NCBI GenBank assembly: GCA_963556145.1
Contig: OY744466.1
Coordinates: forward strand, 1,054,001-1,118,000
Origin: Hygrocybe punicea
Taxonomy: Eukaryota; Basidiomycota; Agaricomycetes; Agaricales; Hygrophoraceae
DNA: 64,000 bases
Direction: 5' to 3'
Of the stretch, positions 5,927 to 53,960 are shown one piece after another. A program made the position numbers and the translations under genes. The notes below the pieces were generated by a model. It was not told the DNA's origin, made no database searches, and worked only from the letters and a program-made list of their open reading frames with translations. Numbering within the stretch: position 1 is the first letter of the stretch; each line of letters starts with the position of its first letter.

Positions 5927-6822
5927 TCATCGTCTAGACATCAACCAGAGGAGAACATTGGAAATCGCTTGTGTTTCCGGATGACGCTGCGCCTCCATTT
6001 CGGGCAGCAGCGTCTCGACCATAGGCAATAGCGTATGCTCGATCAACACTGTCTCAGACAATGGATGTAACCAAAAAATAGAGTATGGGAAACTAATGCA
6101 CGCACGTATCGGCCTTTCAACTATCTTTGATATGTGTTCCTCTCTGGATATGGGAGTATTAGCGCTGTTCTAGAATCTACCGGTCGTGCGAGTTCAGGAC
6201 TCCATCCACAAGACTGCAAACTCACATGTTTTTCTGGAGCTTTGAGAAACCAAGCTCCACTTGTCTGACCATTTGGTCCAAGGCCGACATCTAGGCAGAG
6301 GATTTGAGATAAGACTCTGTGTAAGGGATACTTTGAATTTCGTACATACCTCCTGACCAGGGAGTCCGCTTCTCCACATGCTCTCTGATCTCGCCAAGCA
6401 AACTGGAGGGATTCAACGTTGAGGTATCAGTGCGAGCCTAGAATGTCGATACTGACGTAGAGCATAGTGTTGAAAATTCACTTCTTCAATCTCGTAATCT
6501 CATCCCATATACCGCAGTTGAAAAATGCCTGGAACTTGTCTTCCAAGAAGACGATGAAAATTTCAGCGATAGACCGGACCAAAGCCTCGAGTTGTGATTG
6601 CTTCGAGTGACCTTCGGCAGCCTGTAAATTTGACTTCAAGTTAACAACATGCTCTGTGTGCTGAACATTGAACGAATACCTCTCGAAAAGACATCAATGT
6701 GGATCGAATGCTACCTGGAGACTCGGAATGAGTACCTGTACGATGTTGTGCTGGTCCCCCTGGACGTCATTGAATTGACACTCGCGAGCATTATTAACAA
6801 AAAGAACGGTTGGGCTAGACAT
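5927..6822 (-). CDS. Small protein of unknown function, five exons
   Basis: Not recognised. Five exons join in frame to a 192-residue protein: 6715-6822, 6482-6621, 6350-6402, 6226-6290 and 5927-6139. Phases agree at every junction and the total is a multiple of three. The start reads MSSPTVLFVNNARECQFNDV followed by a QGDQHNIV tract. Many fungal proteins whose names are tied to STAND/NLR-like genes begin in a similar Asn/Asp-rich way, but no nucleotide-binding motif follows here. A helical, acidic/hydrophobic middle (LEALVRSIAEIFIVFLEDKF) and a C-terminal helix-rich part with repeated LLPxxETLLPE follow. Exon 5 uses the acceptor after GAGAG, which is the least certain boundary. It lies tail-to-head upstream of the Fmp46-like gene on the same strand. 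Confidence 0.55.
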
Positions 6823-20100: not shown

Positions 20101-20825
20101 GATGGGGCTACGGTCAGTTACGGGCCCGACACCGGGGAAGCTCGTGCGGTTCGTGCCAGTGGAACTAGGGTATGAGATTCGAATTCATGGCAGTGGCAGA
20201 GCTGAAATTCTGACTCGTGCAGCGGGCACGTTGTGGTTGTAGTATCCGCCGCGCCCTGGTGTGCAACATCTCCTGGCAATCGTGATGGTCAAGAACTGTT
20301 CAGACGCCAAATCCTTTTTTGCATGACGACGCGCCGAAGGTGTACCGAGTGGCAAGTTGTACTACCTATAAATGACACCGGTAAATAATCAGCACCGACC
20401 TGGACGTCTATCGTAACAGTGGGTTATGGGAAATAGTGTGTTCCTCATCATATATTTTCATTACTCGATTCTACGATTCTCTTTCTAGGTGTCCGCGTCC
20501 ACGATTTTGTCCAAGCTATATAACGTGAGAGAAGTTGACATTTATATATCCCCGTGGACTGTAATGCAACTAACGTTCTGAAAGTGTGAACGTATTGCTA
20601 TTTACCTCAAAATATCGATATTACGACTCAAGGGCTCCACGCATATGTGTAACGGCACTCAATCATCACCTGAAGTCGGGGGCCCATGTTGGCTGGAAAC
20701 TTGTGTTCAACAACGGTCACTCCGTACGGTGACTTCGAAATGTTTTGTACGTTTGATAACCTCAGCTTATGGTACTGTAGGATCCAGCAGCGCCCTGTGC
20801 AGGCCCACCTACGTCCTCAACAATC

Positions 20826-20900
20826 AGGAAAAGATCTCACCCACCTCACCCATCTTCGGAGACATCTTACCACCTTTCGCAGACTTCAAATCCCGATGAC
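20826..20900 (-). pseudogene. Captured fragment of the Msb1/Mug8 gene (S1 copy)
   Basis: About 70 bases match 16,018-16,090 inside the low-complexity part of the Msb1/Mug8 gene about 5 kb away, in the same orientation, with a handful of mismatches. It is non-coding here. The S2 segment holds a longer version of the same fragment. Confidence 0.7.
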
Positions 20901-21350
20901 CAGGATCTGATCTGAGGCACATGATCAGCTTACTGGCACAAGTCTAGAATCGAGCTTGCCGTCATTTGTACCATTGGGTTGGTCGCCCCCCCCCCCCCCC
21001 CCTCGATTCTCTAATACATTGCTCTTTCCAGGACGTCCAAGTTTTTCCCGACCAGCCATGGCCGGGAATACCCACCACCCGTGAGAAATGCGTTGGAAGG
21101 CAGATGAAGCATAGATCTACAATATTCACGATATTGTGTTTTCCGGCTGCAAGAAACGACAAACATCATGGGAATGGAGACCGCAAACGAGGCTAGTTTA
21201 CAAAATTTCAAAGACACATTCAACAATCATTTACATGACCTCAGATTCAGAAACTCCGACTCGCAAACATCTTGCGTTTGACCTTGCGTTTGACCTTGAA
21301 GAGAAAACAGGTGATTTCTCCGCGCAAACAGGTTCTGAAGAGAAACAAAC

Positions 21351-21954
21351 CTATTGGTACTCAAGAATTGAGATCGTGCAATCATCGTGATCCTGATCCG
21401 TAAAATCCTCGGAGATCACCTGAAGATGAGGTATTGAGAAAATATATCGTTTGGATACTACTACGCTTACAATTTGTTGATTAAAAGTCATCGGATAATC
21501 GGGCTCAGGTAGCTTTTTGATCTGGAAATCAGTTCAAATGTGAGAATTATCTTGCAGCAACGACGCTAAACGATCGACTCACAGAAAGAGGACCGACCGA
21601 CTGGGAAGGTACGAAACTACCACCAGTTTGGTGGGTTATAGTGACGACGACGATTGCATCAAAGTTGAAGGGACCGAAGGACCAGTGCTCCCTCTGGTTC
21701 AGCCTGTCTTTCATGATTACCCTACTGCCAACGCCTTCGAAAGTAACAGAGGCTATCGGTTGACCGCCCGGTTCCTTCACCTCGACCAAAGCCCTCTGGT
21801 TGGCGCTGGAATTGACGACCTGGTAATGTTGATTGTCCGATCATCAATCGGAAATACGAGAAAAAATATGGACGATGCGGGCGTTGCTTACCCCTGCGGC
21901 AAAGCCTCTGAATCCGGGGAGGAGTGGAAAAGTTTTGGGCTGAGTGGTTCCCAT
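21351..21954 (-). CDS. Small protein family 1, member A (139 aa), unknown function
   Basis: Not recognised by name. Four exons join cleanly: 21892-21954, 21583-21819, 21471-21521 and 21351-21419, giving 139 residues. Features are MGTTQPKTFPLLPGFRGF, a VEVKEPGGQPIASVTFEGVG block, a conserved HWSFGPFNF core, alternating hydrophobics (VVVTITHQ) that suggest a beta-sandwich, and an acidic DQDHDDCTISILEY tail that could bind metal. No signal peptide. A TATAAAG lies about 90 bases upstream at 22045-22051. Two relatives are in this window, at 43606-44209 (minus) and 37411-38115 (plus), with identical intron positions. Conservation of all splice sites argues that it is a functional gene. Confidence 0.75.
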
Positions 21955-22044
21955 GATGATGATCTGTTACAGGTAGGTTGAGAAATGTGTGGTAGAGGTT
22001 ATGGGCAGAGAACTTGAGACACCGTCACGGTACATCCGTGCAGG

Positions 22045-22051
22045 CTTTATA
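22045..22051 (-). promoter_or_regulatory. Probable TATA box of small-family gene A
   Basis: TATAAAG on the minus strand about 90 bases before the ATG at 21954. The same box is preserved before the S2 copy. Confidence 0.45.
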
Positions 22052-22349
22052 GGCCTGAAAGCAAGCTTCCTGTCAACCCTTTCCTGTCACTACCGGTGCA
22101 ATGTTCACACCGGCATGAGACTAATGCACACACCTGACTCCAGCCAGCAAACGTGCGATGAGCTGTACCGATCCTTTGGACCCAACAGAGGCCCTTGCGA
22201 CCTCGCGTTAACTTGAGGGTGCGTAGTTTAAGACTGGGTCATGGGGGCACTTTCTTGTCACTTCGCGTGAACAGCCATCCTGTAAATGCACACTTGAGCA
22301 CCACATAAGTGATCGGGGTGAATCTTTAAGCTTTATTATATAATAAGCT

Positions 22350-22355
22350 TAAGTT
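22350..22355. repeat. Candidate target-site duplication, left (TAAGTT)
   Basis: TAAGTT directly precedes the left terminal repeat and CAAGTT directly follows the right one. Five of six bases agree. Confidence 0.5.
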
Positions 22356-22968
22356 TATGGAAAGCAACAGTGATCAGCCCTTTTTTGTAACGCAATATTC
22401 AATGTCAGACGCGGCATGGCGTTAGGACCCAGGACACTCCACCAATGATAAGTGTTCCGCATACAAGTAATATAGTAGTGTCTTCGTAGCGTTTAACAAG
22501 TGTCCTCATAGCATCAAGTGTCTTCATGTACAAGTATCTTCATAGCAATAAATTCTGATATAAGACTGAGGCTTGATCAGATTACCACCAGACTATTGAG
22601 TAAAAGATATGTGGAATTGCTATTAGACAATCATGAATCTATACTTCGAGAGTCCTGGAACTTAGTAGGAGGCCTCAAAACCCTTCGCCGGCCACACCAG
22701 CTTCAGTTTGTTGGAGGTGTCACATATGGGCTTGCACCTCAAGACGTTGCGGGTATTCGGGTGACTTTGTCGACGCCCATTCGGTTGGTGAGACGAACGA
22801 CGTCGCCGAAGTCTAGTGACGTCGGGTCTGTTGTGTACAGAATCTATCAGATATTACTTAGATAAAGGAGAAACACTCACCTAGCAATAGCCGTAGTTCG
22901 CGCACTTTATTTGCACGTTTTGGGTCGCGGTCGCGCTTTAAACACTCACACTCCCAAACAACAATCTA

Positions 22969-23718
22969 ATGTCCCACCACTCTACCTCATCCACACTGGT
23001 GCTCGAGGCACAAAGCGACTCGCCGCCGCCGCTATCCACCCCAAACAATCCCACCCAAGCCATGGCCAACGCCAACGGCAATAACGAATCCGGCCTGTTA
23101 TCTCCCCTCGCGCTCACCCTGCTATCGTTCGACTCGCCGGGGCCTCTATCTCCCCTCGCGCTCACCCTGCTATCGTTCGACTCGCCGGGGCCTCTATCTG
23201 CCCAGGCCCAACTTGCAGGCGTTGGCTCAAACGAAGACGGCCAACTTTCTCCACTCACACTCAACCTTCGATCGTTCAACTCGTTGACGCTCCCACCCAC
23301 CTCAGCGCTATGTCTGAGCATCGAAAACGACGGTCAATTATCCCCACTCGCCCTGGCCCTCCTATCGTTCGACTCTCCGGCACTTCTATCGGCCCCAGCC
23401 CAACTTTCGGGCATGGGGAATGAGAACGACGGATTGTCGCCCCTCCCTCTCTCCCTCCGATCGTTTGACATCCAACGCAGCAGTGAAGGGTCTCCCGAAG
23501 CGTCGTTAGTTCCTGTGCAGGCCGAAGTTCGCAACGGCGGTGGAGAATCATTGTAAGCAAATGGATAATGTGAATATGGCGCGTATCCGTGAGTTTCCCC
23601 CCCCCTTGCTTGCCCCTCCGTTTCTTGCATTGAAATTATCAGGGCTAACAGTTTTGCAGGTGATGTTGATCTGGGTGATGAAATTGCCATGATGGGAGTG
23701 GTTGTTAGAGGAGAATAA
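22969..23718 (+). CDS. Ser/Pro/Leu repeat protein in left terminal repeat
   Basis: Not recognised. Two exons (22969-23552 and 23643-23718) join in frame to a protein of about 219 residues starting MSHHSTSSTLVLEAQSD. It is built from about seven copies of a motif close to LSPLALTLLSFDSP. Two neighbouring copies are identical at DNA level over 48 bases (about 23,099-23,194), so the array is changing in length. The C-terminal exon reads NSFAGDVDLGDEIAMMGVVV. No signal peptide, no known domain. It could be a short-linear-motif scaffold for the element's other proteins; that is a guess. Because it lies in the terminal repeat, every complete element carries two copies. Confidence 0.6.
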
Positions 23719-23999
23719 TGAAAATTTTTGGATACTCCCGTTTGTGAAATGTTGAATTAGATAAATGCTCTTGAAGATTCTGCTCTTGCGTAGATTCGCC
23801 CTGATGCTTTCACTTCATATGGCAAGCTCTGGTTTGGTCTTTGAGCAAAGCTGGTGATAGCGTCCGGCAGTGGGATAGCAAGTCGGTGATCTTTGCTTTA
23901 TCGTGGAATCTTGACAACAATTGCAGGCACGTGTTGTGAAACACGCCGTCTTTTCTTCTCACCCATGACCAAGGTGAACCAGAAAAACCAATACAAGCC

Positions 24000-24155
24000 A
24001 TGCCGTCAGTCGTTTTTCATTCCATCTCTTTCTTTCTGGCTGACACACTCCAAGCTCCCGAGGACGAGCTACGCGAGCTCCTGTTGTTCTACTACAATCT
24101 CGGTCTAAACGACAAGAAGGTTGCGTCGTCATGTCTTTATCATTTCGATACCGAG
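24000..24155 (+). pseudogene. Integrase gene start, cut off at the inner edge of the left repeat
   Basis: Encodes the first 52 residues of the integrase (MPSVVFHSISFFLAD to HFDTE). It then runs into unrelated sequence where the terminal repeat ends. It is the mirror image of the true gene start at 35,106 and may give a short transcript from the same promoter. Confidence 0.75.
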
Positions 24156-24285
24156 GGGTACCCATGTATTGACAGGTACGTCCGTCACCCAGTGACGAGC
24201 TTATCAACGTCAAGGTGGCCAAAGGCCAAAGGCTGTTGTCTGGATCCTTAGGGAACTTGCTGGGGATTGCCATGTTCTGACACGT

Positions 24286-24840
24286 TTGCACACCATGAAC
24301 CCCCAAGATCACCCTTCACCTGGCTCCATTGTCCAACCGAGAACGACAGTCGACCTTGCGGGCACAGCGGTTAGCCAGGGTGGCCACCTCATGTCGAACA
24401 AAAAGTGCAAACTTCCTGACGGTTCGCTCAAGCGAACACGCCAGGACCATGAGGAGATCCACTTTCCGGTCCCGAAGTGGAAACCGGTCATCGAGGGCGA
24501 ACACGTCCCCATCACGGCGCTTCCAGAGTGGGCTCGGCAGGCCTTTACTGGGCCTAGTTTGAATCGTATTCAAAGCAAGTTGTATCCTATTGCTTATGGT
24601 ACAGACAAGCCAATCTTGTTGTGTGCCCCAACCGTGGTTGGCAAGGTATGCACACGAACACACATACAGCTTATCGGGGCCTCGGTGACGCTCCCCAATT
24701 GCCAGGACGTTGCAACATTCCACCGTGTCGACCCCAACAGCGACCTCTTCTATTTTGATGCATCGTACCGCCTACAACAGCAGTTCATCGGCGTCACAGA
24801 TGAGAAAGCTATCAAGAGCTACCAAGTTCCAGAGCACTGA
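24286..24840 (+). pseudogene. Captured fragment of a Brr2-type spliceosomal RNA helicase (copy 1)
   Basis: An open frame of 184 codons. Codons 50-115 match the entry of the Brr2 helicase cassette: HFPVPKWKP, LPEWARQAF, LNRIQSKLYPIAYGTDKPIL, then LLCAPT. The Walker A lysine motif is degraded: VVGK stands where GAGKT is expected. The frame then jumps to a distant internal Brr2 piece: LPNCQDVATFHRVD, LFYFDASYRLQQQFIGVT, EKAIKSYQ. The helicase core between them is missing, so it cannot be an active helicase. Brr2 unwinds U4/U6 in the spliceosome; here the piece looks captured by the transposon. The open frame could still give a small protein. Confidence 0.75.
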
Positions 24841-25299
24841 GCGCCGGATCAGCTTCCACCGAAAATGACTTCCCTTTAGCAAGAATAAGTAGTGGAATGC
24901 CGTTTATCATATGTATTGTGTACCATACCTTCAAATGCTACTCAATTCAAAATGTATTCAACGTGTCGGCAAGTAAATGTATTACACTTTCGCAACATAT
25001 TGGCTAGGCAAGCTGATTGATCCTATGCGGACGTTTTGGGGCTGGTCAGTCTCGAGATCATGATATATATGTAAACTTTGCTTCCTTTAAAGTACGATAA
25101 CAATACACAGAGTTCAGCAGTCGAACACCAATCGGCATGGAAATCCCAATTCGGACTGAGGTTACACTTCCGTCGTTTCACACAATTTACGGCCAATAAA
25201 ATTTTATTCAGTCACATTAGTGTCCCTGCCTTCGGAATACTCGTCACTCCCAACACAACACTCCTTTGCTCCCCAACATTCCTTTTTATATTTCAATCC

Positions 25300-27763
25300 A
25301 TGCCGCAGTACGCCGCCGAATTCACATCTGAAAATGAAATTGTCATCTGCGGTGGTCCATGCAAGAAGCAGATCAAGCCGCCTGCGGGGATATTTTATCT
25401 GTTGAACCAAGATCGCTCTCGGGCTGGGCGAAAAGTGTGCTCTGACTGCCATCAGTACTACCTCAACAAAAAAACCACTCGCCGTGTTGATGGTAACCAC
25501 TTTCATCATTTTACCTCCGTTTTGCTAACCCATATGAGACACAGCTGCGGAAAGTGTTAAATCTATCCAGAGACAAGTTGCTGTTGCACAGCGCGGTGGT
25601 GAGTATGAGAATATTACCCTATGGATATGCTGACTCACATGCCGAATGTTACAGAGCGGACAGATCCGGTGCAGGCACTTGGATATCTAGCTCGACATGA
25701 TGGTTTCCGACCGTTGCCTCCCCCTCCAGCCCCGGGGCCGGTGATCATAACACCAGCCCTCTATAATCAGGCCCCGCAACTAACATTCCCTGCGGAATTC
25801 CGGAACCTACCCACTGTCAACGGCTATCAAGAAGCCCATCAGCGTTACGTGGAGTTAAAGAATCGGTTCAGTGCCCAGGCATTTGCAGTTGGGCCTGTCG
25901 CTGAGGTCATCGTTATCAAGTTTTGGGTGAAGGTGCTGCTTCCAGGTCGAAAAACAGCCGTATGGGTCGCGGTGAGTGAAGCCATGACATTTCCACAAGA
26001 GCCAATTCAACGTGGCGTTCACAGGATATTTGCGAGACCGTTGGATCCATACCTGTTCATAGCGGCGTGAATGATCTCAAGTTGACTGGAGTGACGGCTG
26101 TAGCACACAAGTACATTAAGTGGACAAAAGGCATGGGGCTCAATCCTGATGACGTCGAACTCCGATCCGCACAATGGGAAGAGCTCTTACCAAAGGGGTT
26201 AGGGAATCTCGATGTCGATGCTGTTTCGCAACGATATTTCAAAATGGTTCGAGGTAAAAGACGTTTTGAAGCTGGTGGAAAGGTTCTCGAGTTGATACTA
26301 GCAATATCACATGAACTATATGAAATTGCACATACCAACAGTATCCGAGACGACTCTGTGCCATTACAGGTATGCAAACGCACCGAAGAATGTCTGGTTG
26401 ATTGACTGTCATTCAGCTTGTCGCAGAAGTGAAAGAAATTGCAGCTCCACCCAGGCCCAAACGACAGCATGCCGAATTATCAGCCGATGACAACTCTTCC
26501 GATGTCCCTCGAACCCGTTCACTGGCATTACAATCAGTCACCAGCACAGGTACCACCAGTACTTCTCGACTGAGGCATGCGTTGCAAGCACAAAAAGCAC
26601 CAGGTCGGAAAGCTATGCAAGGGATATGTAAGTGGATCAACATGCACTAATGGCCCTGACAACTCATCTGTTTCGAAGTTGACCTCAAAATCACGGAATG
26701 CATGGTTTACCCAACGGAGTTCCCTTCCATTGATCACCTTATTGCAAAGCCGAAGGCCCCTGTTCTCCTCGTGGACAAAGGTTTCCCCATCATCCTCACG
26801 TTCAATACCAACGACCCCATTTCTGGCGCTTGCAAAGTGGCGTACTTTGGTCATACCAACAAGCCGGTCTTTCCAGGCTCGGAATCTCTTGCCGTTTGTG
26901 TCAAGCAGGCATTTTGTAACAGCCGAACGTCGGATTCTCGAATTATATTTGAAGGTCCTAAACAAGCTGAATTACTGACCACCGAAATCAACTGTTCACG
27001 CTGGGCTTCAGCTCTGATGCGCCTCGTATACGAGTTTATGGAAAAGGAAAACTGGACTCGAGGAAAGCCACCCTTTCCTGTACCGAAGATGCGTTATGTC
27101 AACGTAGCATTGGCGGTGGCTAGTAACAATAAACGAGATGCTTATTTATTGGAGGAAGTCGTTGATGGATCAGACGGAGATTTCCTCAAGTATATCAACA
27201 ACACTTCGGCAGCTCCTCTTCCGCAGCTGGACTCAAAGAGGGAATACGTTGGTCTATTCTTGTCATTTGCTCAGCACGTCCAAATGCTCGAGACTCAGCA
27301 TCATGTCTTTGTTTCTGATCAACAAGGTATACAATATTGTTTTGTCGCCAAGAATCATGCTGACATTCAACTTCTCACAGGAGGTCTCACTTTACTCTCT
27401 GATCCACAAATAATCACTTCGCCGTAAGTTTTACTTGTTCTTTATGTATTCTGATGCCTACTTTGTATCAAAAGTGACCTCGGACCTGAGCGTGTGTTCG
27501 CTGATGGGAATTTGGCGGCCTCCTTCACCTACTTCGGAGATGATCATATTTGCAACAAGTTCTGTGAATTCTATGATCTATCTCCTATCAAGCCAGCACT
27601 GAAGGCTCACTTGAAACCTGGATTGATGTTGGAAAGGCTACAGCAAGAGCAAGCGTTGGAGGTTTTAGGCCAGGAGTGCGGCAGCCTGTTCTTAGCCGAG
27701 GAAGGGGAGATAACTGAGGGTGGAGGGCCAGCTGGAAGGAAGTCGAAGAAAAAGAGGGTCTGA
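25300..27763 (+). CDS. Zinc-finger alpha-kinase protein (copy 1)
   Basis: Predicted atypical (MHCK/EF2K-family) Ser/Thr kinase. Eight exons join in frame: 25300-25492, 25545-25598, 25655-25971, 26025-26369, 26417-26627, 26679-27326, 27381-27423, 27475-27763; 699 residues. Residues 17-56 hold a putative zinc finger (CGGPC then CSDC). The alpha-kinase domain spans about 395-640: lysine in GACKVAYFG (about 426), YLLEEVVDGSDGDFLKYINN, the paired DQQGG and LLSDPQI elements (Asp about 587 and 597), FADGN, and the zinc-binding HICNKFCEFYDL. All catalytic landmarks are present, so activity is plausible. A basic KSKKKRV tail may direct it to the nucleus. Alpha-kinases are amplified in many Agaricomycetes; here the gene sits inside a transposon facing the integrase gene tail to tail, 134 bases apart. 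Confidence 0.85.
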
Positions 27764-27897
27764 TCAACGCCATAATGTTCTCCGGTTCTGCATAGATTAT
27801 TTTTTCGATCTCTTCTCTTTACTTACAATTTTTTTCATCCAACCGATACCCATAGTTATAGAAAATTTCTTGGACAATACATGGACAATAATGATAG

Positions 27898-29570
27898 TTA
27901 CTCTTCGTCAGAACTACTTTCCTGATCTGTAAAGTCAGCATATTCCAGAACAGATTCGGAAACACCAGATTCCGCTCGTGTATGATTAGGGAATCCCGGT
28001 TCTCCGTAGGGGCCAACTACATTGTCGCCATTTCGTAATTCCCGAAGTCCGGAAAGAAGGGGGACACCATCATTTGCTATCCTTTGCGTCTCCTGATGAG
28101 ATTCTAATATGGGTGTAAGTTCGGCATTGCCCAGTGCACGAAAAGCCTGCAATAGTTGGAGATAGACGACCCAGAATGAACTAGATGAGACGGGTGGCCT
28201 CCCAATGCCGGCATAGAGGCCGTGCACACGCTCCTCGAATGGTGGAGGCACGAGTTGGAAGACCGGGTCTTCAGGAGGAGCGTAGAGCCTTTCGGCTTCA
28301 TCTAGCAATGATGCCGGAACAACCACCTAGAATGGGTATGAGACGGCATTGAACGCTATACGACTACATTCATACCTTGAAGTCCAATGCACCATATTGT
28401 TCGGGATGCAGGCGAATGAGCTCTGGTATTCCATGAGGAAGGATCTTTTTCTTGTCTCGGCGTGGCGCTGTTTGGTTCCGCTGTATAACCCATCTGTCGA
28501 GTTCAGCTTGAATCCATGGTATCGCGAGCCACCTAAAGACGAAACTGACCAAAATGTTAATGCTAAGAAACCTCAAAATAGGACACACTCACTTTTCGAG
28601 TGGATCACTAGCGTCATACCACCCACTATTCACACCATGATCAAGGATATTCTCGAAGCCGGGCGTAAAATCCCGACGAAAGACGGACCAATTTGCCTCG
28701 GACTTAACATTATGCTTTTCCCTCATCCATCGGTGTTGTAGGGTGTCGCTGAGAGTGGGATCAAGCCGGTGGCGTATCAGAGTTTGTGAATTGGCGACAC
28801 CAAAGTTTTCTGAACCAGGATCGCTTTGAGTTACTAGCGGAACTCCTTGATAACATCAGGAGATGAAGTTTTGCAAACAAGGAATCATGGACACGTTACC
28901 CCCTGTTTTCCGAGCAGCTTCGATGTAGAAGCTGGTGATCAGCTTCGGATTTTTGTTGGTCCACCAGACTTTCAACCAGTTGTTGTACGACATGAATGGG
29001 TCAACACTGTTATGGAAATAAAGTCCAAAACGTAACCATTTATCGTGTTGGTCTTGACACCAGATATCATTCACTCCGGCACACCAGAAGCGTTTTCGCT
29101 TGAAGCGGTTATGGCGGCGTCCTTCAACAGCATGTCGTTCAGTTGAAATGAGAAAATTTGATATCAATGCCCTGTGGCATAAAAAATCAATATATAGCAG
29201 GATGTTTAAAACTGGTACATTACCGTGAAACACGCATGCCATACTCTTGTCGGAGGTTCTTGCGGATGTTTTCGCTACCACGCTTCGGGAACCGCCTGCG
29301 TATCTCCTCTATTGCTCCTGAGATTGAATCAAATGTATGGTTCTGTTGACGGGTGCTCTTTAAATCCCACTTCCGCCTGAGACGCTTGACCGTTGATGCA
29401 CTGTTGATTGTTGAGGTTGTAATCTGTATTACGAAGAAAGCGTAATAGGAGGTACTCAACCTGAGCCCATATTGCTCCGTATCGAAATGATAAAGACATG
29501 ACGACGCAACCTTCTTGTCGTTTAGACCGAGATTGTAGTAGAACAACAGGAGCTCGCGTAGCTCGTCCTC
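27898..29570 (-). CDS. DDE-integrase-like transposase (copy 1, start lost in the gap)
   Basis: Same gene as 33374-35106. Exons 27898-28326, 28376-28532, 28593-28845, 28900-29171, 29224-29400 and 29461 onward into the gap. The first 30 or so codons fall in the run of N. Everything that can be read agrees with copy 2, where the gene is complete and is described. Confidence 0.85.
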
Positions 29571-29670
29571 NNNNNNNNNNNNNNNNNNNNNNNNNNNNNN
29601 NNNNNNNNNNNNNNNNNNNNNNNNNNNNNNNNNNNNNNNNNNNNNNNNNNNNNNNNNNNNNNNNNNNNNN
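29571..29670. other. Assembly gap, exactly 100 N
   Basis: A round-number gap conventionally used for unknown length. It lies in the middle of the transposon at the edge of its terminal repeat, so the true distance may be negative (overlap). Confidence 0.98.
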
Positions 29671-29761
29671 ACGAGCTTATCAACGTCAAGGTGGCCAAAG
29701 GCCAAAGGCTGTTGTCTGGATCCTTAGGGAACTTGCTGGGGATTGCCATGTTCTGACACGT

Positions 29762-30316
29762 TTGCACACCATGAACCCCCAAGATCACCCTTCACCTGGC
29801 TCCATTGTCCAACCGAGAACGACAGTCGACCTTGCGGGCACAGCGGTTAGCCAGGGTGGCCACCTCATGTCGAACAAAAAGTGCAAACTTCCTGACGGTT
29901 CGCTCAAGCGAACACGCCAGGACCATGAGGAGATCCACTTTCCGGTCCCGAAGTGGAAACCGGTCATCGAGGGCGAACACGTCCCCATCACGGCGCTTCC
30001 AGAGTGGGCTCGGCAGGCCTTTACTGGGCCTAGTTTGAATCGTATTCAAAGCAAGTTGTATCCTATTGCTTATGGTACAGACAAGCCAATCTTGTTGTGT
30101 GCCCCAACCGTGGTTGGCAAGGTATGCACACGAACACACATACAGCTTATCGGGGCCTCGGTGACGCTCCCCAATTGCCAGGACGTTGCAACATTCCACC
30201 GTGTCGACCCCAACAGCGACCTCTTCTATTTTGATGCATCGTACCGCCTACAACAGCAGTTCATCGGCGTCACAGATGAGAAAGCTATCAAGAGCTACCA
30301 AGTTCCAGAGCACTGA
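29762..30316 (+). pseudogene. Captured Brr2 helicase fragment (copy 2)
   Basis: Same sequence as 24286-24840: an entry-site piece with degraded Walker A (APTVVGK) fused to an internal piece. Probably the same physical locus if the interior duplication is an assembly artefact. Confidence 0.75.
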
Positions 30317-30775
30317 GCGCCGGATCAGCTTCCACCGAAAATGACTTCCCTTTAGCAAGAATAAGTAGTGGAATGCCGTTTATCATATGTATTGTGTACC
30401 ATACCTTCAAATGCTACTCAATTCAAAATGTATTCAACGTGTCGGCAAGTAAATGTATTACACTTTCGCAACATATTGGCTAGGCAAGCTGATTGATCCT
30501 ATGCGGACGTTTTGGGGCTGGTCAGTCTCGAGATCATGATATATATGTAAACTTTGCTTCCTTTAAAGTACGATAACAATACACAGAGTTCAGCAGTCGA
30601 ACACCAATCGGCATGGAAATCCCAATTCGGACTGAGGTTACACTTCCGTCGTTTCACACAATTTACGGCCAATAAAATTTTATTCAGTCACATTAGTGTC
30701 CCTGCCTTCGGAATACTCGTCACTCCCAACACAACACTCCTTTGCTCCCCAACATTCCTTTTTATATTTCAATCC

Positions 30776-33239
30776 ATGCCGCAGTACGCCGCCGAATTCA
30801 CATCTGAAAATGAAATTGTCATCTGCGGTGGTCCATGCAAGAAGCAGATCAAGCCGCCTGCGGGGATATTTTATCTGTTGAACCAAGATCGCTCTCGGGC
30901 TGGGCGAAAAGTGTGCTCTGACTGCCATCAGTACTACCTCAACAAAAAAACCACTCGCCGTGTTGATGGTAACCACTTTCATCATTTTACCTCCGTTTTG
31001 CTAACCCATATGAGACACAGCTGCGGAAAGTGTTAAATCTATCCAGAGACAAGTTGCTGTTGCACAGCGCGGTGGTGAGTATGAGAATATTACCCTATGG
31101 ATATGCTGACTCACATGCCGAATGTTACAGAGCGGACAGATCCGGTGCAGGCACTTGGATATCTAGCTCGACATGATGGTTTCCGACCGTTGCCTCCCCC
31201 TCCAGCCCCGGGGCCGGTGATCATAACACCAGCCCTCTATAATCAGGCCCCGCAACTAACATTCCCTGCGGAATTCCGGAACCTACCCACTGTCAACGGC
31301 TATCAAGAAGCCCATCAGCGTTACGTGGAGTTAAAGAATCGGTTCAGTGCCCAGGCATTTGCAGTTGGGCCTGTCGCTGAGGTCATCGTTATCAAGTTTT
31401 GGGTGAAGGTGCTGCTTCCAGGTCGAAAAACAGCCGTATGGGTCGCGGTGAGTGAAGCCATGACATTTCCACAAGAGCCAATTCAACGTGGCGTTCACAG
31501 GATATTTGCGAGACCGTTGGATCCATACCTGTTCATAGCGGCGTGAATGATCTCAAGTTGACTGGAGTGACGGCTGTAGCACACAAGTACATTAAGTGGA
31601 CAAAAGGCATGGGGCTCAATCCTGATGACGTCGAACTCCGATCCGCACAATGGGAAGAGCTCTTACCAAAGGGGTTAGGGAATCTCGATGTCGATGCTGT
31701 TTCGCAACGATATTTCAAAATGGTTCGAGGTAAAAGACGTTTTGAAGCTGGTGGAAAGGTTCTCGAGTTGATACTAGCAATATCACATGAACTATATGAA
31801 ATTGCACATACCAACAGTATCCGAGACGACTCTGTGCCATTACAGGTATGCAAACGCACCGAAGAATGTCTGGTTGATTGACTGTCATTCAGCTTGTCGC
31901 AGAAGTGAAAGAAATTGCAGCTCCACCCAGGCCCAAACGACAGCATGCCGAATTATCAGCCGATGACAACTCTTCCGATGTCCCTCGAACCCGTTCACTG
32001 GCATTACAATCAGTCACCAGCACAGGTACCACCAGTACTTCTCGACTGAGGCATGCGTTGCAAGCACAAAAAGCACCAGGTCGGAAAGCTATGCAAGGGA
32101 TATGTAAGTGGATCAACATGCACTAATGGCCCTGACAACTCATCTGTTTCGAAGTTGACCTCAAAATCACGGAATGCATGGTTTACCCAACGGAGTTCCC
32201 TTCCATTGATCACCTTATTGCAAAGCCGAAGGCCCCTGTTCTCCTCGTGGACAAAGGTTTCCCCATCATCCTCACGTTCAATACCAACGACCCCATTTCT
32301 GGCGCTTGCAAAGTGGCGTACTTTGGTCATACCAACAAGCCGGTCTTTCCAGGCTCGGAATCTCTTGCCGTTTGTGTCAAGCAGGCATTTTGTAACAGCC
32401 GAACGTCGGATTCTCGAATTATATTTGAAGGTCCTAAACAAGCTGAATTACTGACCACCGAAATCAACTGTTCACGCTGGGCTTCAGCTCTGATGCGCCT
32501 CGTATACGAGTTTATGGAAAAGGAAAACTGGACTCGAGGAAAGCCACCCTTTCCTGTACCGAAGATGCGTTATGTCAACGTAGCATTGGCGGTGGCTAGT
32601 AACAATAAACGAGATGCTTATTTATTGGAGGAAGTCGTTGATGGATCAGACGGAGATTTCCTCAAGTATATCAACAACACTTCGGCAGCTCCTCTTCCGC
32701 AGCTGGACTCAAAGAGGGAATACGTTGGTCTATTCTTGTCATTTGCTCAGCACGTCCAAATGCTCGAGACTCAGCATCATGTCTTTGTTTCTGATCAACA
32801 AGGTATACAATATTGTTTTGTCGCCAAGAATCATGCTGACATTCAACTTCTCACAGGAGGTCTCACTTTACTCTCTGATCCACAAATAATCACTTCGCCG
32901 TAAGTTTTACTTGTTCTTTATGTATTCTGATGCCTACTTTGTATCAAAAGTGACCTCGGACCTGAGCGTGTGTTCGCTGATGGGAATTTGGCGGCCTCCT
33001 TCACCTACTTCGGAGATGATCATATTTGCAACAAGTTCTGTGAATTCTATGATCTATCTCCTATCAAGCCAGCACTGAAGGCTCACTTGAAACCTGGATT
33101 GATGTTGGAAAGGCTACAGCAAGAGCAAGCGTTGGAGGTTTTAGGCCAGGAGTGCGGCAGCCTGTTCTTAGCCGAGGAAGGGGAGATAACTGAGGGTGGA
33201 GGGCCAGCTGGAAGGAAGTCGAAGAAAAAGAGGGTCTGA
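30776..33239 (+). CDS. Zinc-finger alpha-kinase protein (copy 2)
   Basis: Identical in translation to 25300-27763, with exons shifted by 5,476 (30776-30968 to 32951-33239). It lies between the Brr2 fragment and the integrase gene, tail to tail with the latter. If there really are two tandem interiors, the element carries two kinase genes; otherwise this is the same gene seen twice. Confidence 0.85.
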
Positions 33240-33373
33240 TCAACGCCATAATGTTCTCCGGTTCTGCATAGATTATTTTTTCGATCTCTTCTCTTTACTT
33301 ACAATTTTTTTCATCCAACCGATACCCATAGTTATAGAAAATTTCTTGGACAATACATGGACAATAATGATAG

Positions 33374-35106
33374 TTACTCTTCGTCAGAACTACTTTCCTG
33401 ATCTGTAAAGTCAGCATATTCCAGAACAGATTCGGAAACACCAGATTCCGCTCGTGTATGATTAGGGAATCCCGGTTCTCCGTAGGGGCCAACTACATTG
33501 TCGCCATTTCGTAATTCCCGAAGTCCGGAAAGAAGGGGGACACCATCATTTGCTATCCTTTGCGTCTCCTGATGAGATTCTAATATGGGTGTAAGTTCGG
33601 CATTGCCCAGTGCACGAAAAGCCTGCAATAGTTGGAGATAGACGACCCAGAATGAACTAGATGAGACGGGTGGCCTCCCAATGCCGGCATAGAGGCCGTG
33701 CACACGCTCCTCGAATGGTGGAGGCACGAGTTGGAAGACCGGGTCTTCAGGAGGAGCGTAGAGCCTTTCGGCTTCATCTAGCAATGATGCCGGAACAACC
33801 ACCTAGAATGGGTATGAGACGGCATTGAACGCTATACGACTACATTCATACCTTGAAGTCCAATGCACCATATTGTTCGGGATGCAGGCGAATGAGCTCT
33901 GGTATTCCATGAGGAAGGATCTTTTTCTTGTCTCGGCGTGGCGCTGTTTGGTTCCGCTGTATAACCCATCTGTCGAGTTCAGCTTGAATCCATGGTATCG
34001 CGAGCCACCTAAAGACGAAACTGACCAAAATGTTAATGCTAAGAAACCTCAAAATAGGACACACTCACTTTTCGAGTGGATCACTAGCGTCATACCACCC
34101 ACTATTCACACCATGATCAAGGATATTCTCGAAGCCGGGCGTAAAATCCCGACGAAAGACGGACCAATTTGCCTCGGACTTAACATTATGCTTTTCCCTC
34201 ATCCATCGGTGTTGTAGGGTGTCGCTGAGAGTGGGATCAAGCCGGTGGCGTATCAGAGTTTGTGAATTGGCGACACCAAAGTTTTCTGAACCAGGATCGC
34301 TTTGAGTTACTAGCGGAACTCCTTGATAACATCAGGAGATGAAGTTTTGCAAACAAGGAATCATGGACACGTTACCCCCTGTTTTCCGAGCAGCTTCGAT
34401 GTAGAAGCTGGTGATCAGCTTCGGATTTTTGTTGGTCCACCAGACTTTCAACCAGTTGTTGTACGACATGAATGGGTCAACACTGTTATGGAAATAAAGT
34501 CCAAAACGTAACCATTTATCGTGTTGGTCTTGACACCAGATATCATTCACTCCGGCACACCAGAAGCGTTTTCGCTTGAAGCGGTTATGGCGGCGTCCTT
34601 CAACAGCATGTCGTTCAGTTGAAATGAGAAAATTTGATATCAATGCCCTGTGGCATAAAAAATCAATATATAGCAGGATGTTTAAAACTGGTACATTACC
34701 GTGAAACACGCATGCCATACTCTTGTCGGAGGTTCTTGCGGATGTTTTCGCTACCACGCTTCGGGAACCGCCTGCGTATCTCCTCTATTGCTCCTGAGAT
34801 TGAATCAAATGTATGGTTCTGTTGACGGGTGCTCTTTAAATCCCACTTCCGCCTGAGACGCTTGACCGTTGATGCACTGTTGATTGTTGAGGTTGTAATC
34901 TGTATTACGAAGAAAGCGTAATAGGAGGTACTCAACCTGAGCCCATATTGCTCCGTATCGAAATGATAAAGACATGACGACGCAACCTTCTTGTCGTTTA
35001 GACCGAGATTGTAGTAGAACAACAGGAGCTCGCGTAGCTCGTCCTCGGGAGCTTGGAGTGTGTCAGCCAGAAAGAAAGAGATGGAATGAAAAACGACTGA
35101 CGGCAT
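33374..35106 (-). CDS. DDE-integrase-like transposase (complete copy)
   Basis: Predicted to cut and join the element's ends. Six exons (34937-35106, 34700-34876, 34376-34647, 34069-34321, 33852-34008, 33374-33802) total 1,458 bases, 485 residues. Residues 50-115 form a basic helix-rich region (VKRLRRKWDLKS, AIEEIRRRFPKRG, IRKNLRQEYGMRVSR) like the DNA-binding part of fungal integrase-type transposases. The catalytic fold follows: NDIWCQDQHDKWLRFG (Asp about 155), PLVTQSDPGSEN (Asp about 215), and a final acid in REKHNVKSEANWS (Glu about 249 or 256). The block RRDFTPGFENILDHG, WIQAELDRWV, KKKILPHGIPELI and YGALDFKV is a signature of the integrase-core proteins common in Agaricomycetes. A Ser/Asp/Glu tail ends it. 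Its start lies inside the terminal repeat, so its promoter is carried at both ends of the element. Confidence 0.85.
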
Positions 35107-36750
35107 GGCTTGTATTGGTTTTTCTGGTTCACCTTGGTCATGGGTGAGAAGAAAAGACGGCGTGTTTCACAACACGTGCCTGCAATTGTTGTCAAGATTC
35201 CACGATAAAGCAAAGATCACCGACTTGCTATCCCACTGCCGGACGCTATCACCAGCTTTGCTCAAAGACCAAACCAGAGCTTGCCATATGAAGTGAAAGC
35301 ATCAGGGCGAATCTACGCAAGAGCAGAATCTTCAAGAGCATTTATCTAATTCAACATTTCACAAACGGGAGTATCCAAAAATTTTCATTATTCTCCTCTA
35401 ACAACCACTCCCATCATGGCAATTTCATCACCCAGATCAACATCACCTGCAAAACTGTTAGCCCTGATAATTTCAATGCAAGAAACGGAGGGGCAAGCAA
35501 GGGGGGGGGAAACTCACGGATACGCGCCATATTCACATTATCCATTTGCTTACAATGATTCTCCACCGCCGTTGCGAACTTCGGCCTGCACAGGAACTAA
35601 CGACGCTTCGGGAGACCCTTCACTGCTGCGTTGGATGTCAAACGATCGGAGGGAGAGAGGGAGGGGCGACAATCCGTCGTTCTCATTCCCCATGCCCGAA
35701 AGTTGGGCTGGGGCCGATAGAAGTGCCGGAGAGTCGAACGATAGGAGGGCCAGGGCGAGTGGGGATAATTGACCGTCGTTTTCGATGCTCAGACATAGCG
35801 CTGAGGTGGGTGGGAGCGTCAACGAGTTGAACGATCGAAGGTTGAGTGTGAGTGGAGAAAGTTGGCCGTCTTCGTTTGAGCCAACGCCTGCAAGTTGGGC
35901 CTGGGCAGATAGAGGCCCCGGCGAGTCGAACGATAGCAGGGTGAGCGCGAGGGGAGATAGAGGCCCCGGCGAGTCGAACGATAGCAGGGTGAGCGCGAGG
36001 GGAGATAACAGGCCGGATTCGTTATTGCCGTTGGCGTTGGCCATGGCTTGGGTGGGATTGTTTGGGGTGGATAGCGGCGGCGGCGAGTCGCTTTGTGCCT
36101 CGAGCACCAGTGTGGATGAGGTAGAGTGGTGGGACATTAGATTGTTGTTTGGGAGTGTGAGTGTTTAAAGCGCGACCGCGACCCAAAACGTGCAAATAAA
36201 GTGCGCGAACTACGGCTATTGCTAGGTGAGTGTTTCTCCTTTATCTAAGTAATATCTGATAGATTCTGTACACAACAGACCCGACGTCACTAGACTTCGG
36301 CGACGTCGTTCGTCTCACCAACCGAATGGGCGTCGACAAAGTCACCCGAATACCCGCAACGTCTTGAGGTGCAAGCCCATATGTGACACCTCCAACAAAC
36401 TGAAGCTGGTGTGGCCGGCGAAGGGTTTTGAGGCCTCCTACTAAGTTCCAGGACTCTCGAAGTATAGATTCATGATTGTCTAATAGCAATTCCACATATC
36501 TTTTACTCAATAGTCTGGTGGTAATCTGATCAAGCCTCAGTCTTATATCAGAATTTATTGCTATGAAGATACTTGTACATGAAGACACTTGATGCTATGA
36601 GGACACTTGTTAAACGCTACGAAGACACTACTATATTACTTGTATGCGGAACACTTATCATTGGTGGAGTGTCCTGGGTCCTAACGCCATGCCGCGTCTG
36701 ACATTGAATATTGCGTTACAAAAAAGGGCTGATCACTGTTGCTTTCCATA
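34951..36750 (-). repeat. Right terminal inverted repeat, 1.8 kb
   Basis: Reverse complement of the left terminal repeat. It supplies the start and probably the promoter of the complete integrase gene, plus a second copy of the repeat-protein gene. Confidence 0.9.
35388..36137 (-). CDS. Ser/Pro/Leu repeat protein in right terminal repeat
   Basis: Inverted copy of the gene at 22969-23718, with exons 35554-36137 and 35388-35463. I noticed no difference from the left copy, including the 48-base internal duplication. This implies recent copying of one arm onto the other or a young element. Confidence 0.6.
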
Positions 36751-36756
36751 CAAGTT
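36751..36756. repeat. Candidate target-site duplication, right (CAAGTT)
   Basis: Partner of TAAGTT at 22,350-22,355. CAAGTT is also present at the matching place in the S2 segment (44,607-44,612), which supports this as the original target. Confidence 0.55.
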
Positions 36757-42020: not shown

Positions 42021-43069
42021 AAACGAGTTGCGACCGAGCGCTGCCGACGACGGCCAAGAACATCATGCATCATGGCCTCCCTATTGTCAAATCATGGTGA
42101 AACTAGGGTATGACATTCGAATTCATGGCAGTGGCAGCGGGAGTACCTGGAGCTGAAATTCTGACTCGTGCAGCGAGCACGTTTTGGTTGTAGAATCCAC
42201 AAGCCGCCCTGGTGTGCAACATCTCCTAGCAATCGGGATGGTCAAGAACCGTTGAGGTTGAGCTGGGCAGTCTTATGTAAATAGGCGCCCACCAAATCCT
42301 TTTTTGCACGACGACGCGCCGAAGGTGTACCCGCTACTACCTATAAATTAAATGATTCCGGTAAATAATCAGCTCCCTAGCGCCGACCCCGACGTCTTTC
42401 GTGACAGTGGATTAGGGGGAACAGTGCGTTCCCCGTCATATATTTTTCCTCACTCCTCGGGATCACATCAGGTTGCAGCACCCTCCCCATCGCGATTCTC
42501 TTTCCAGGTGTCCGCGTCCAAGATTTTGTCCAGGCTATATAACGTGAGAGAAGTTGACATTTATATATCCCCGTGTACTGTGCTCTTTACCTCAAATTGA
42601 TATTATGACTCAAGGGCTCCACGCATATGCGTAACGGCACTCAATTATCACCTGAAGTCGGGGGCCCATGTTGGCTGGAAACTTTTCTTCGGCAACGGTC
42701 ACTCTGTACGATGACTTCGAAATGCTTTGTACGCTTTATAACCTCAGCTGATGGTAATGTAGGATCCAGCAGCGCCGTTGTGCAGGCCCAACTACTTCCT
42801 CAACAATCCGTCGGAATAATACAATCGTTTCCGCCCGTTTTGTTAACAAGTTGCAGGTAACTCAGATGCCTGGAACAGGCTCCGCCATAGAGGTCGGACG
42901 GATCTTGTACCTTTTACCTTTTCGACGGCTGTATCGAGGAGCTCCGGGCATCGTAAGTGTGACAACGGCAGACTTCATCGCATATTTGGCTCCTTCATTG
43001 TCTTCAACAAGAGCAACAGCAACCCCAACGATGTGCTACTGCGGTTCGCCGAACCAACAATGTCATGTC

Positions 43070-43195
43070 CATGCTACCTTGGCGGCCCGTTTTTCCTCCT
43101 CCTATTTCTCAGGCAAGATCTCATCCATCCCACCCATGAACGGAGACATCTTACTACCTTTCACAAACTTCAAGTTGCCCCCATCACCAGGATTT
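43070..43195 (-). pseudogene. Captured fragment of the Msb1/Mug8 gene (S2 copy)
   Basis: About 125 bases align to 15,980-16,110 of the Msb1/Mug8 gene (TTGGCGGCC, then TTTTTCCTC, then CAAGATCTCA, then CATCACCAG) in the same orientation with about 20 differences. No open frame is retained. Confidence 0.7.
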
Positions 43196-43605
43196 GATTA
43201 GAAGCACAAGTCTAGCCCCGAGCTTATCGTCTTTAATAACATTGGGTTGCTCGCCCCTCCCTCGTTTCCCCTCGATTTTCTAATACATTCCTCATTCCAG
43301 GCCGTCCCAGTTTTTCGCGACCAGCCATGCCGACAACCCATGTGAGAGATGCATTGGAAGCCAGATGAAGTATAGATTTCCGCTATCCACGATATAGATT
43401 TTTTTCCGGCTGCAAGAAACGACAAACATCATGTGGAATTGGAGACCGCGAACGAGGCTAGTTTACAAAATTTCAAAGACACATATTCAACAATCATTTA
43501 CACGACCTCAGATTCAGCAACTCCGACTCGGAAACATCTTGCGTTTGACCTTGAAGAGAAAACAGGTGATTTCTCCGCGCAAACATGTTCTGAAGAGAAA
43601 TAAAC

Positions 43606-44209
43606 CTATTTGTACTCAAGAATGGTGATCGTGCAATCATCGTGATCCTGATCCGTATAATCCTCAGAGATCACCTGAAGATTAGGTATTGAGAAAATAT
43701 ATCGTTCAGAAACTACTAATACCACGACTTACAATTTGTTGATTAAAAGTCATCGGATAGTCGGGCTCAGGTAGCTTTTTGACCTGGAAATCAGTTCAAA
43801 TGTGAGAATTATCTTGCACAGAAACAATTCTAAACCCGACTCACAGAAAGAGGACCGACCGACTGGGAAGGTACGAAACTACCACCACTTTGGTGGGTTA
43901 TAGTGACGGTGACGACTGCATCAAAGTTGAAGGGACCGAAGGACCAGTGCTCCCTCTGGTTAAGCCTGTCTCTCATAAGTACCCTACTGCCAACGCCTTC
44001 GAAAGTAACAGAGGCTATCGGTTGACCGCTCGTTTCCTTCACCTCGATCAAAGCCCTCTGATTGGCGCTGGAATTGACGACCTAGTAATGTTGATTGTCG
44101 GATTGTCAATCGGAAATAAGAGAATTCAAAGAAATATGTTGCTTGCCCCAGCGACGAAGCCTCTGTATCCAGGGAGGAGGGGAAAAGTTTTGGGCTCAAT
44201 AGTTCCCAT
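43606..44209 (-). CDS. Small protein family 1, member B (139 aa), unknown function
   Basis: S2 counterpart of the gene at 21351-21954. Exons 44147-44209, 43845-44081, 43733-43783 and 43606-43674 have exactly the same lengths as in the S1 copy. Differences are mostly conservative (VLMRDRL for VIMKDRL, TISIL to TITIL). The first intron begins GC (GCAAGC) instead of GT. The core HWSFGPFNF and the acidic DQDHDDC tail are kept. TATAAAG is conserved at 44296-44302. Preservation of all four exons in both segment copies suggests selection on the protein. Confidence 0.75.
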
Positions 44210-44295
44210 GATAAAATCTTTTTCAGGTAGCTTGAGAAATGTGTGTTGGAGGTTATGGGCAAGAGAACTTGACCGTCACGGTACATCTATGCACG

Positions 44296-44302
44296 CTTTA
44301 TA
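44296..44302 (-). promoter_or_regulatory. Probable TATA box of small-family gene B
   Basis: TATAAAG at the same distance (about 90 bases) before the ATG as in the S1 copy. Confidence 0.45.
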
Positions 44303-45015
44303 GGCCTGAAAGCAAGGTTCCTGTCAACCCCTTCCTGTCACTACCGGTGCAATGTTCACTCCGGCATGAGAATAATGCACACACCTGACCTAGCTAGCAA
44401 ACGTGCGATGTACTGTATCGATCCTTTGGACCCAACCGAGGCCCTTGCGACCTAGCGTCAACTTCAGGGTGTGTGGTGCAAGACTAGGTCAGGAGGAGGC
44501 ACTTTCTTGTCACTTCATGTGAACATTCTTGAGGCACCACTATGATAAGTGATCGGGATGAGTGGCGTAGTTCCACACTGGCAGGACATCGAGGCTCATG
44601 CCGCCTCAAGTTCAAGTGTGACTGTCACAGTGTCACAACAATCATTAGCGAAACCAACGAGTCAACGACTGCACTGCTCAGCGCTCTGACAGCACTCAAC
44701 TCTAATATCTTCCACCAAGCCCTGAGAGGTACTTACTCCAGGATGTCGAACCCATTTATCTCGAACTCTCGGTGATGTCCGAAAAGCCTAACCATCCGGT
44801 ATGCTGGTTACATTCATCCATACTCCACATTTGTGTGATCAGACTCTTCTGAGACGTCTAAATGGCCCCGAAGGGTCATCTGCTTTGCCTCCCTGGGTCA
44901 GGTTGTATCCATGATGGTGATGAATTGATTACCGCTCCTCGGGCCCAGGCAGGTGGGGTTCCTGATCATAATCTGTCTTTCCATAAGGAGTCGTTTGCTT
45001 TCCATTGATTCTTCC

Positions 45016-53262: not shown

Positions 53263-53960
53263 GAGGGAGAGGGAGAGGAGAGAGCAGGGAGGGAGCAGGG
53301 AGGGAATGGGGAGGGAGCAGGGAGGGAACGGGGAGGGAGCAGGGAGGGAGCAGGGAGGGAGCAGGGAGGGAACGGGGAGGGAGCAGGGAGGGAGCAGGGA
53401 GGGAACGGGGAGGGAGCAGGGAGGGAGCAGGGAGGGAACGGGGAGGGAGCAGGGAGGGAGCAGGGAGGGAACGGGGAGGGAGCAGGGAGGGAGCAGGGAG
53501 GGAACGGGGAGGGAGCAGGGAGGGAGCAGGGAGGGAGCAGGGAGGGAACAGGGAGGGAGCAGGGAGGGAACGGGGAGGGAGCAGGGAGGGAGCAGGGAGG
53601 GAACGGGGAGGGAGCAGGGAGGGAGCAGGGAGGGAGCAGGGAGGGAACAGGGAGGGAGCAGGGAGGGAACGGGGAGGGAGCAGGGAGGGAGCAGGGAGGG
53701 AACGGGGAGGGAGCAGGGAGGGAGCAGGGAGGGAGCAGGGAGGGAACAGGGAGGGAGCAGGGAGGGAACGGGGAGGGAGCAGGAGGGAGCGGGGAGGGAG
53801 CAGGAGGGAGCGGGGAGGGAGCAGGAGGGAGCGGGGACAGAGAGAATGAGGAGAGGGAGGAAACCAGGAGGGAGCGGGGACAGAGAGAACGAGGAGATGG
53901 AGGAAACCGGCAGCCTGAGGGAGCGGGAGGGAGCAGGGACAGAGCGGGGGAAGGAGGGAG
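53263..53960 (+). repeat. G-rich 11-bp minisatellite
   Basis: Tandem units of GGGAGGGAGCA alternating with GGGAGGGAACG, about 50 copies, arranged in a higher-order pattern of about 33 bases. The four or more closely spaced GGG runs would favour G-quadruplex DNA on the plus strand. Because 11 is not a multiple of 3 but 33 is, all frames stay open on both strands; the 375- and 418-codon frames are artefacts of this. Confidence 0.95.

Follow-up and report, generated by a model that had tools for sequence, protein, structure and literature searches.

An IS3EU-like transposon family carrying an alpha-kinase gene beside its transposase in Hygrocybe punicea

IS3EU transposons have TA..TA ends and usually generate 6-bp target-site duplications (TSDs), according to the passages devoted to them in the 2023 IS481EU paper (PMC10045372), in the main text of which the word kinase was not found. 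The fungal TET+ IS3EU families, described from rusts and Tuber, combine 6-bp TSDs with TAYGG..CCRTA ends, and in the relevant sections of that account all of them carry a TET/JBP gene between the transposase gene and an oppositely oriented alpha-kinase gene (Kojima 2025, PMC12730594). IS3EU elements have also been counted in Agaricomycetes, in passages that do not mention a kinase (PMC8955403, PMC12411881), and the strong expansion of alpha-kinases in rusts is presented, where it is discussed, as a gene-family feature (PMC4469406). In the parts of the open-licence PubMed Central (PMC) literature consulted, alpha-kinases are tied to transposons only in PMC12730594; as far as its relevant sections go, the element class and its association with a kinase are already known for families that also carry TET. 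Here we describe an element that pairs a transposase gene with an alpha-kinase gene in a 64-kb window (the whole stretch of DNA analysed) of the 92.2-Mb assembly of the Agaricomycete Hygrocybe punicea; positions are those of the window, and C-numbers denote contigs of the same assembly.

Judged from its sequence, this is very probably an IS3EU-type transposon, likely of ~8.9 kb, with uninterrupted predicted genes for a transposase and a co-descended alpha-kinase that likely acts in the life cycle of the element. Structure, linkage and co-descent are established for this genome. TET-free families in an Agaricomycete, co-descent of the two genes, ends that include the first transposase exon and a captured BRR2 fragment were not found in the parts of the open-licence PMC literature consulted.

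The element is bounded by terminal inverted repeats (TIRs) of 1,800 bp at 99.94% identity (exact over 1,796 bp counted from the outer end) and terminates in TATGG..CCATA, bearing out the 1.8-kb inverted ends reported in a first-pass annotation of the window; as that annotation also held, an alpha-kinase gene lies between the TIRs, next to the transposase gene (Table 1). The DDE-integrase-like protein proposed at that stage proves to be a six-exon transposase of DDE/rve type, with a match to Pfam rva_4 (28.2 bits, the cut-off being 26) and no stop in its model, which was made by hand, the acceptor of intron 1 being picked among several that keep the frame open. Its catalytic residues (D156/D159, D215 and E256) are invariant across 19 aligned proteins; in a broader alignment of 36, the first two Asp fall slightly short of invariance. 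The kinase, likewise annotated as complete, matches Pfam Alpha_kinase (PF02816) at 46.9 bits against a cut-off of 21.3, over profile positions 3-185 of 185, and is encoded by eight exons. The predicted protein shows what we take to be the catalytic Lys, the Asp of DxQG and of DPQ, and the H/C/C zinc-binding end; among families that have a residue at the site in question, the Lys is present in 18 of 19 and the DxQG Asp in 18 of 18. The kinase also matches residues 497-643 of eEF2 kinase (PDB 7shq, E 2e-4). Its N-terminal half, with the CGGPC/CSDC cysteines, gave no significant Pfam match, and an AlphaFold model of a Pleurotus relative, built on three aligned sequences, reached a mean predicted local distance difference test score (pLDDT) of only 33.7. 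A protein search returned one relative with the whole kinase and two with the catalytic region, too few to assess taxonomic spread.

Linkage of the two genes extends well beyond the window. A genome search with the transposase protein, in which 88 of 170 candidates were scored, gave 44 loci among the matches listed; an alpha-kinase lies no more than 5 kb away at 39 of them and no more than 10 kb away at 40. Four pairs of loci were merged by hand (gap doublets on C8 and C34, the halves of C34:658546-681570, and the halves on C2 at 6005-6007 and 6024-6027 kb), after which an alpha-kinase lies within 5 kb of 37 of the 40 transposase elements (among the matches listed), the chance expectation being a fraction of 0.0073; this check had been set beforehand, and in this genome its outcome is positive. 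Of the three unlinked elements, one is a kinase-deletion copy on C1; the other two still show kinase remnants, from the N-terminus at C41:1980622 (E 4e-6) and from the middle of the protein at C40:4576811 (E 5e-18). As an internal control, 76 other rva_4 integrase loci (from a Pfam rva_4 search, one hit per locus, without overlap with the transposase list) were tested against 64 kinase loci: among the matches listed, none has an alpha-kinase within 10 kb, and no long TIR was seen in the two control stretches inspected (L139, L140). The kinase is opposite to the transposase in the window clade and in a large convergent clade, both genes share one strand in the C7:2119168 clade, and the kinase lies upstream at C3:7433253 and C35:1841416. 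In Pleurotus pulmonarius, transposase and kinase carry the adjacent locus tags AB1N83_001842 and AB1N83_001843, both on a contig of 109,125 bp.

That these are host kinases merely neighbouring IS3EU-rich regions is highly improbable. Such an explanation would draw on the 24 of the 64 kinase loci that have no such transposase within 10 kb; the linked kinases, however, lie between TIRs and inside TSDs in several insertions at different sites, some of these insertions are near-identical with differing flanks (see below), and the control loci are unlinked. For the linked kinase group, this explanation is refuted. Forty of the 47 loci found with the window kinase are linked to the transposase; the other 17, which only the Pfam profile brought up, are all unlinked and may belong to another group.

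Interior and arms of the window element match seven further places in the genome (C34:829996, C40:4827638, C36:3632120, C34:658546, C1:3119181, C34:5651460 and C34:5311264) and, more distantly, C6:7608303, which represents a sister family. Long matches in the C34:829996, C36 and C40 copies are at least 99.7% identical to the window element, and their flanks differ. Flanks were inspected by eye for the seven copies together with C35:4739851 and C35:3013880 (n = 9), and for the window element itself; exact 6-bp TSDs are present in six of the nine related insertions (GTTTTC, CATATT, GTACTT, CACAAT, GATCTG and GGCCTG), and C35:3013880 (L138) is embedded in a larger palindrome containing a gap, where the TSD is uninformative. 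Almost all of the kinase and part of the transposase are deleted from C1:3119181, which retains both arms and an exact TSD. A second family, represented by C39:1072857-1080152 (~7.3 kb, its ~930-bp arms including a stretch of a 100-bp tandem repeat), shows the ends TATGGCAACAGGGACTGGTCAGCCC, beginning TATGG.. like the window family. Exact 6-bp TSDs flank two of its four insertions inspected (C7:5804354-5813102 and C36:2981144-2994343), both of which are longer than ~7.3 kb and hold kinase and transposase between their ends; one of the other two has a rearranged left end. In a further family (L118, C7:6843500), the left end is TATGGAAACCGAGAGTGATC, and the right end lies beyond the stretches inspected.

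The first-pass annotation placed the element at 22356-36750; it is indeed a TIR transposon, matched at the seven further places, but its 14.4-kb span is inflated by a 100-N gap and a doubled interior. Positions 24195-29570 and 29671-35046 show zero differences over 5,376 bp and are separated by exactly 100 N. Because a real tandem duplication stopping exactly at a scaffold gap of standard size is unlikely, we read the doubling as an artefact, most likely two overlapping contig ends left unmerged. The collapsed element likely measures 8,919 bp and contains one kinase and one transposase, in the proposed order TIR, BRR2 fragment, kinase, transposase, TIR. The copy at C34:829996-844672 likewise shows its interior twice with 100 N between, 190 and 149 bp of arms flanking the gap. 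These two gaps, with that in the palindromic L138, could suggest that inverted ends and doubled genes alike arose by misassembly of a single kinase locus, which we consider extremely unlikely: TIR pairs recur at other sites, among them C36, C34:658546 and C1, where the arms show 90-97% identity to those of the window element and are flanked by TSDs of their own, and only the interior doubling looks artefactual.

Trees of the catalytic kinase exon and of the transposase core, the comparison proposed in the first-pass annotation as a check on co-descent, were built from 34 of 36 linked pairs (two of under 100 residues were dropped), grouped into 20 families at 90% identity, and they largely agree. 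Kinase and transposase distances are correlated (Mantel r 0.836; none of 9,999 permutations reaches this value, the best being 0.49), and 11 clades with support of at least 0.8 are common to both trees, out of 15 such clades listed for the kinase and 13 for the transposase. With linkage in 37 of 40 elements among the matches listed, this agreement speaks against a kinase captured only here.

Relative to the sister copy C6:7608303, the ratio of nonsynonymous to synonymous divergence (Ka/Ks) is 0.11 for the kinase (600 codons) and 0.16 for the transposase (441 codons). Three of the eight family copies (window, C34:829996 and C40) show no stop, indel or inserted DNA in either gene. At C36 both frames lack stops and indels, but 2.8 kb of foreign DNA lies at the edge of kinase exon 3; ~7 kb is inserted into each gene at C34:658546, and the remaining three copies have stops or deletions. 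Transitions in four decayed copies fall at CpG in either sequence in 236 of 289, 286 of 417, 168 of 210 and 90 of 116 cases, as expected from cytosine methylation.

A number of observations weigh against this reading of the element. The assignment to IS3EU is drawn from ends, TSDs and fold rather than from a tree with reference transposases. The two TSDs of the window element agree at only five of six positions, the flanks of C34:5651460 show no matching TSD, those of C35:4739851 and of C39:1072857 (second family) pair only with offsets of 3 bp and 1 bp, respectively, and the left end at C36:3632120 is GATGG. Conservation of the transposase residues in this genome is not universal (D156 in 22 of 22, D159 in 20 of 22, D215 in 21 of 22 and E256 in 18 of 21). 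Nearest neighbours agree in only 13 of the 20 families, so the trees are not identical, and one or both genes are broken by stops, deletions or inserted DNA in five of the eight family copies. The kinase Ks to the sister copy, 1.8, is near saturation, and that copy itself has stops. Among decayed copies, Ka/Ks is 0.56-0.93 for the transposase (four copies) and 0.38, 0.40 and 1.38 for the kinase, the last value coming from a copy with few changes; these values are as expected of dead copies. The limited scoring of the genome search and the kinase loci without a transposase count on the same side.

Some of the same material bears on whether the kinase is a passenger, captured once from a host by an ancestral IS3EU element and carried along since without helping it, an account that we consider unlikely but that deserves weight. 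The kinase-deleted C1:3119181 is still bounded by arms and TSD, and a gene-less relative (L137) still has TIRs, which suggests that the element can probably do without the kinase in cis; a piece of another, unrelated gene, BRR2, is carried as well. Against it, about 20 families have retained the kinase, its tree largely matches that of the transposase, its catalytic residues are preserved and its Ka/Ks to the sister family is low, whereas the BRR2 fragment shows an internal deletion and a changed Walker A motif and gave no DNA match in the sister copy. L137 (C35:4739750-4743850) is 3.9 kb long, has arms of 519 bp and shares the ends of the window element; it matches neither kinase nor transposase, has three additional bases between the left TSD and TATGG, and was probably mobilised in trans.

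We favour, among these accounts, a kinase that serves the transposon, and would picture its action as follows. Acting at TATGG..CCATA, the DDE transposase would excise the element and join it to staggered target DNA, leaving 6-bp duplications; the kinase gene would travel along, so that each burst of transposition would raise the number of alpha-kinase genes. Transposase exon 1 spans the inner edge of the TIR, and both TIRs, holding the start of the transposase gene, likely contain an inward promoter: that of the right TIR would drive the transposase, and that of the left, to judge by its position, would direct transcription towards the BRR2 fragment and kinase gene. Most likely, the kinase would phosphorylate either the transposase or host proteins of chromatin or repair, allowing silencing to be escaped or transposition to be completed, a role that may be likened to the anti-silencing function that TET/JBP enzymes have been proposed to serve in other fungal transposons. 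Its long retention suggests that the kinase works for the element.

Spread of the transposon would explain much of the alpha-kinase gene multiplication in this genome. Beyond it, the chances seem evenly balanced that kinases of this type are a standing second gene of an IS3EU clade rather than part of host signalling: a selfish kinase, targeting the transposase or the silencing machinery, whose transposition would be the expansion counted in mushroom fungi and rusts. Were such kinases to ride IS3EU elements, much of the rust expansion would represent transposon copy number, and the kinomes of these fungi would need re-annotation; alongside TET/JBP, transposons would then also have a second type of accessory enzyme with long-term retention.

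Other features of the element lie in or next to its arms (Table 1); two of them, the BRR2 fragment and the position of transposase exon 1 across the inner TIR edge, had escaped the first-pass annotation. The repeat protein that the first-pass annotation placed in the ends corresponds to an open frame over a 48-bp minisatellite, and is not supported as a gene: it diverges no slower than the TIR as a whole, and an excess of third-position changes is largely explained by CpG placement, a weaker excess remaining. The BRR2 fragment (0.63 kb) shows 70-81% identity to the intact BRR2 gene of this assembly at C40:467 kb, lacks 462 bp and 9 bp of that gene, and has VVGKV at the position where human BRR2 has GAGKT. 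BRR2 as functional cargo was rejected on account of these losses and the altered motif, and the stretch is a captured host fragment rather than a functional gene.

Table 1. Positions of the element and its component features within the 64-kb window
Feature	Positions	Strand	Remarks
Left TSD, TAAGTT	22350..22355	.	5/6 positions match the right side
Left TIR	22356..24155	+	Begins TATGGAAAGC
Open frame over 48-bp minisatellite in left TIR	22942..23556	+	Coding status not supported
Copy of most of transposase exon 1	24000..24151	+	Lacks a splice donor of its own; position obtained by mirroring exon 1 (34937-35106) and the edge of the TIR
Captured BRR2 (U5 small nuclear ribonucleoprotein helicase) gene fragment	24194..24827	+	Internally deleted, Walker A altered
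Alpha-kinase gene, first assembled copy	25300..27763	+	Identical to 30776-33239
Transposase gene, first assembled copy	27898..29570	-	Gap cuts exon 1
Scaffold gap, 100 N	29571..29670	.	
Doubled interior, 5,376 bp	29671..35046	.	Identical to 24195-29570; likely one stretch assembled twice across the gap
Alpha-kinase gene	30776..33239	+	8 exons: 30776-30968, 31021-31074, 31131-31447, 31501-31845, 31893-32103, 32155-32802, 32857-32899, 32951-33239; 699 aa
DDE transposase gene	33374..35106	-	6 exons: 35106-34937, 34876-34700, 34647-34376, 34321-34069, 34008-33852, 33802-33374; 485 aa
Right TIR	34951..36750	-	Terminates GCTTTCCATA; includes most of transposase exon 1
Right TSD, CAAGTT	36751..36756	.	

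Several loci are of interest in their own right. At C40:4827638-4841939 (L013, L015), a whole element abuts an inverted partial one within a single outer TSD pair, and an 8-bp deletion is common to both outer arms and absent from the inner arm; the locus may have arisen by insertion of one copy into another, followed by recombination between arms with loss of a stretch. The element at C34:658546-681570 is split twice by ~7 kb of foreign DNA, with a 5-bp query overlap at each break, likely representing long terminal repeat retrotransposons. A second type of alpha-kinase locus, found at C7:1307430 (L005), C1:2423771 (L007) and C39:370034 (L008) in copies 98.6-99.0% identical over 2.8-3.2 kb, gave no significant match to this transposase in the stretches concerned, and may be carried by another mobile element. 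Within the window, positions 20159-22273 and 42097-44525 form a direct repeat in pieces, 78-96% identical and ~22 kb apart, the first copy adjoining the element, and 53264-54266 is a ~1-kb tandem array of diverged units.

With respect to classification, the first-pass annotation knew of no described class with this gene set; the ends, the TSD size and the pairing of kinase and transposase nevertheless match IS3EU as presented in the relevant sections of PMC12730594. As a whole, its observation is confirmed in part and its interpretation supported in part, the element length, the doubled kinase and the repeat protein having been corrected and the absence of a described class being unsupported. 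The elements combine 6-bp TSDs, TATGG..CCATA termini (a form of TAYGG..CCRTA), TIRs longer than 30 bp (1,800 and ~930 bp) and an rve-type DDE transposase. Membership of a different DDE superfamily (Ginger, GingerRoot or Polinton-like) is improbable: Pfam calls only rva_4, and IS481EU is poorly separated from IS3EU/GingerRoot in the published tree (PMC10045372, in the part dealing with it), but 6-bp TSDs with TA..TA and TAYGG..CCRTA termini are those given for IS3EU in the passages cited (PMC12730594, PMC10045372), and the TSDs stated there for Ginger1 (4 bp) and Ginger2 (4 or 5 bp; PMC10045372) are shorter than the 6 bp found here. No TET/JBP gene lies between transposase and alpha-kinase, and none of 42 listed transposase loci is within 10 kb of any of the 96 Tet_JBP loci above cut-off in the genome, where TET/JBP genes likely ride other transposons.

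Set beside the systems described so far, as far as the relevant sections of each source go, the window family and the larger clade share with the TET+ IS3EU elements of rusts and Tuber their 6-bp TSDs, TAYGG..CCRTA ends and a DDE transposase opposite an alpha-kinase. Unlike those elements, they are without TET/JBP within 10 kb (42 listed loci), have TIRs of 1.8 or ~0.93 kb and reside in an Agaricomycete; one clade here has both genes on the same strand, and a BRR2 fragment is carried. With IS3EU/GingerRoot at large they have in common TA..TA termini, 6-bp TSDs and an rve-type DDE transposase (PMC10045372). Styx of Zymoseptoria resembles them in a transposase said to share its origin with IS3EU, in its TIR (36 bp), in additional coding sequences and in a 6-bp TSD search setting, and differs in having four coding sequences, its ancestral element being said to encode two proteins (PMC10853768). 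The KDZ transposons that carry TET/JBP, described in PMC12730594, differ in both transposase and enzyme, and are alike in that a lineage-specifically expanded enzyme gene is borne by a transposon.

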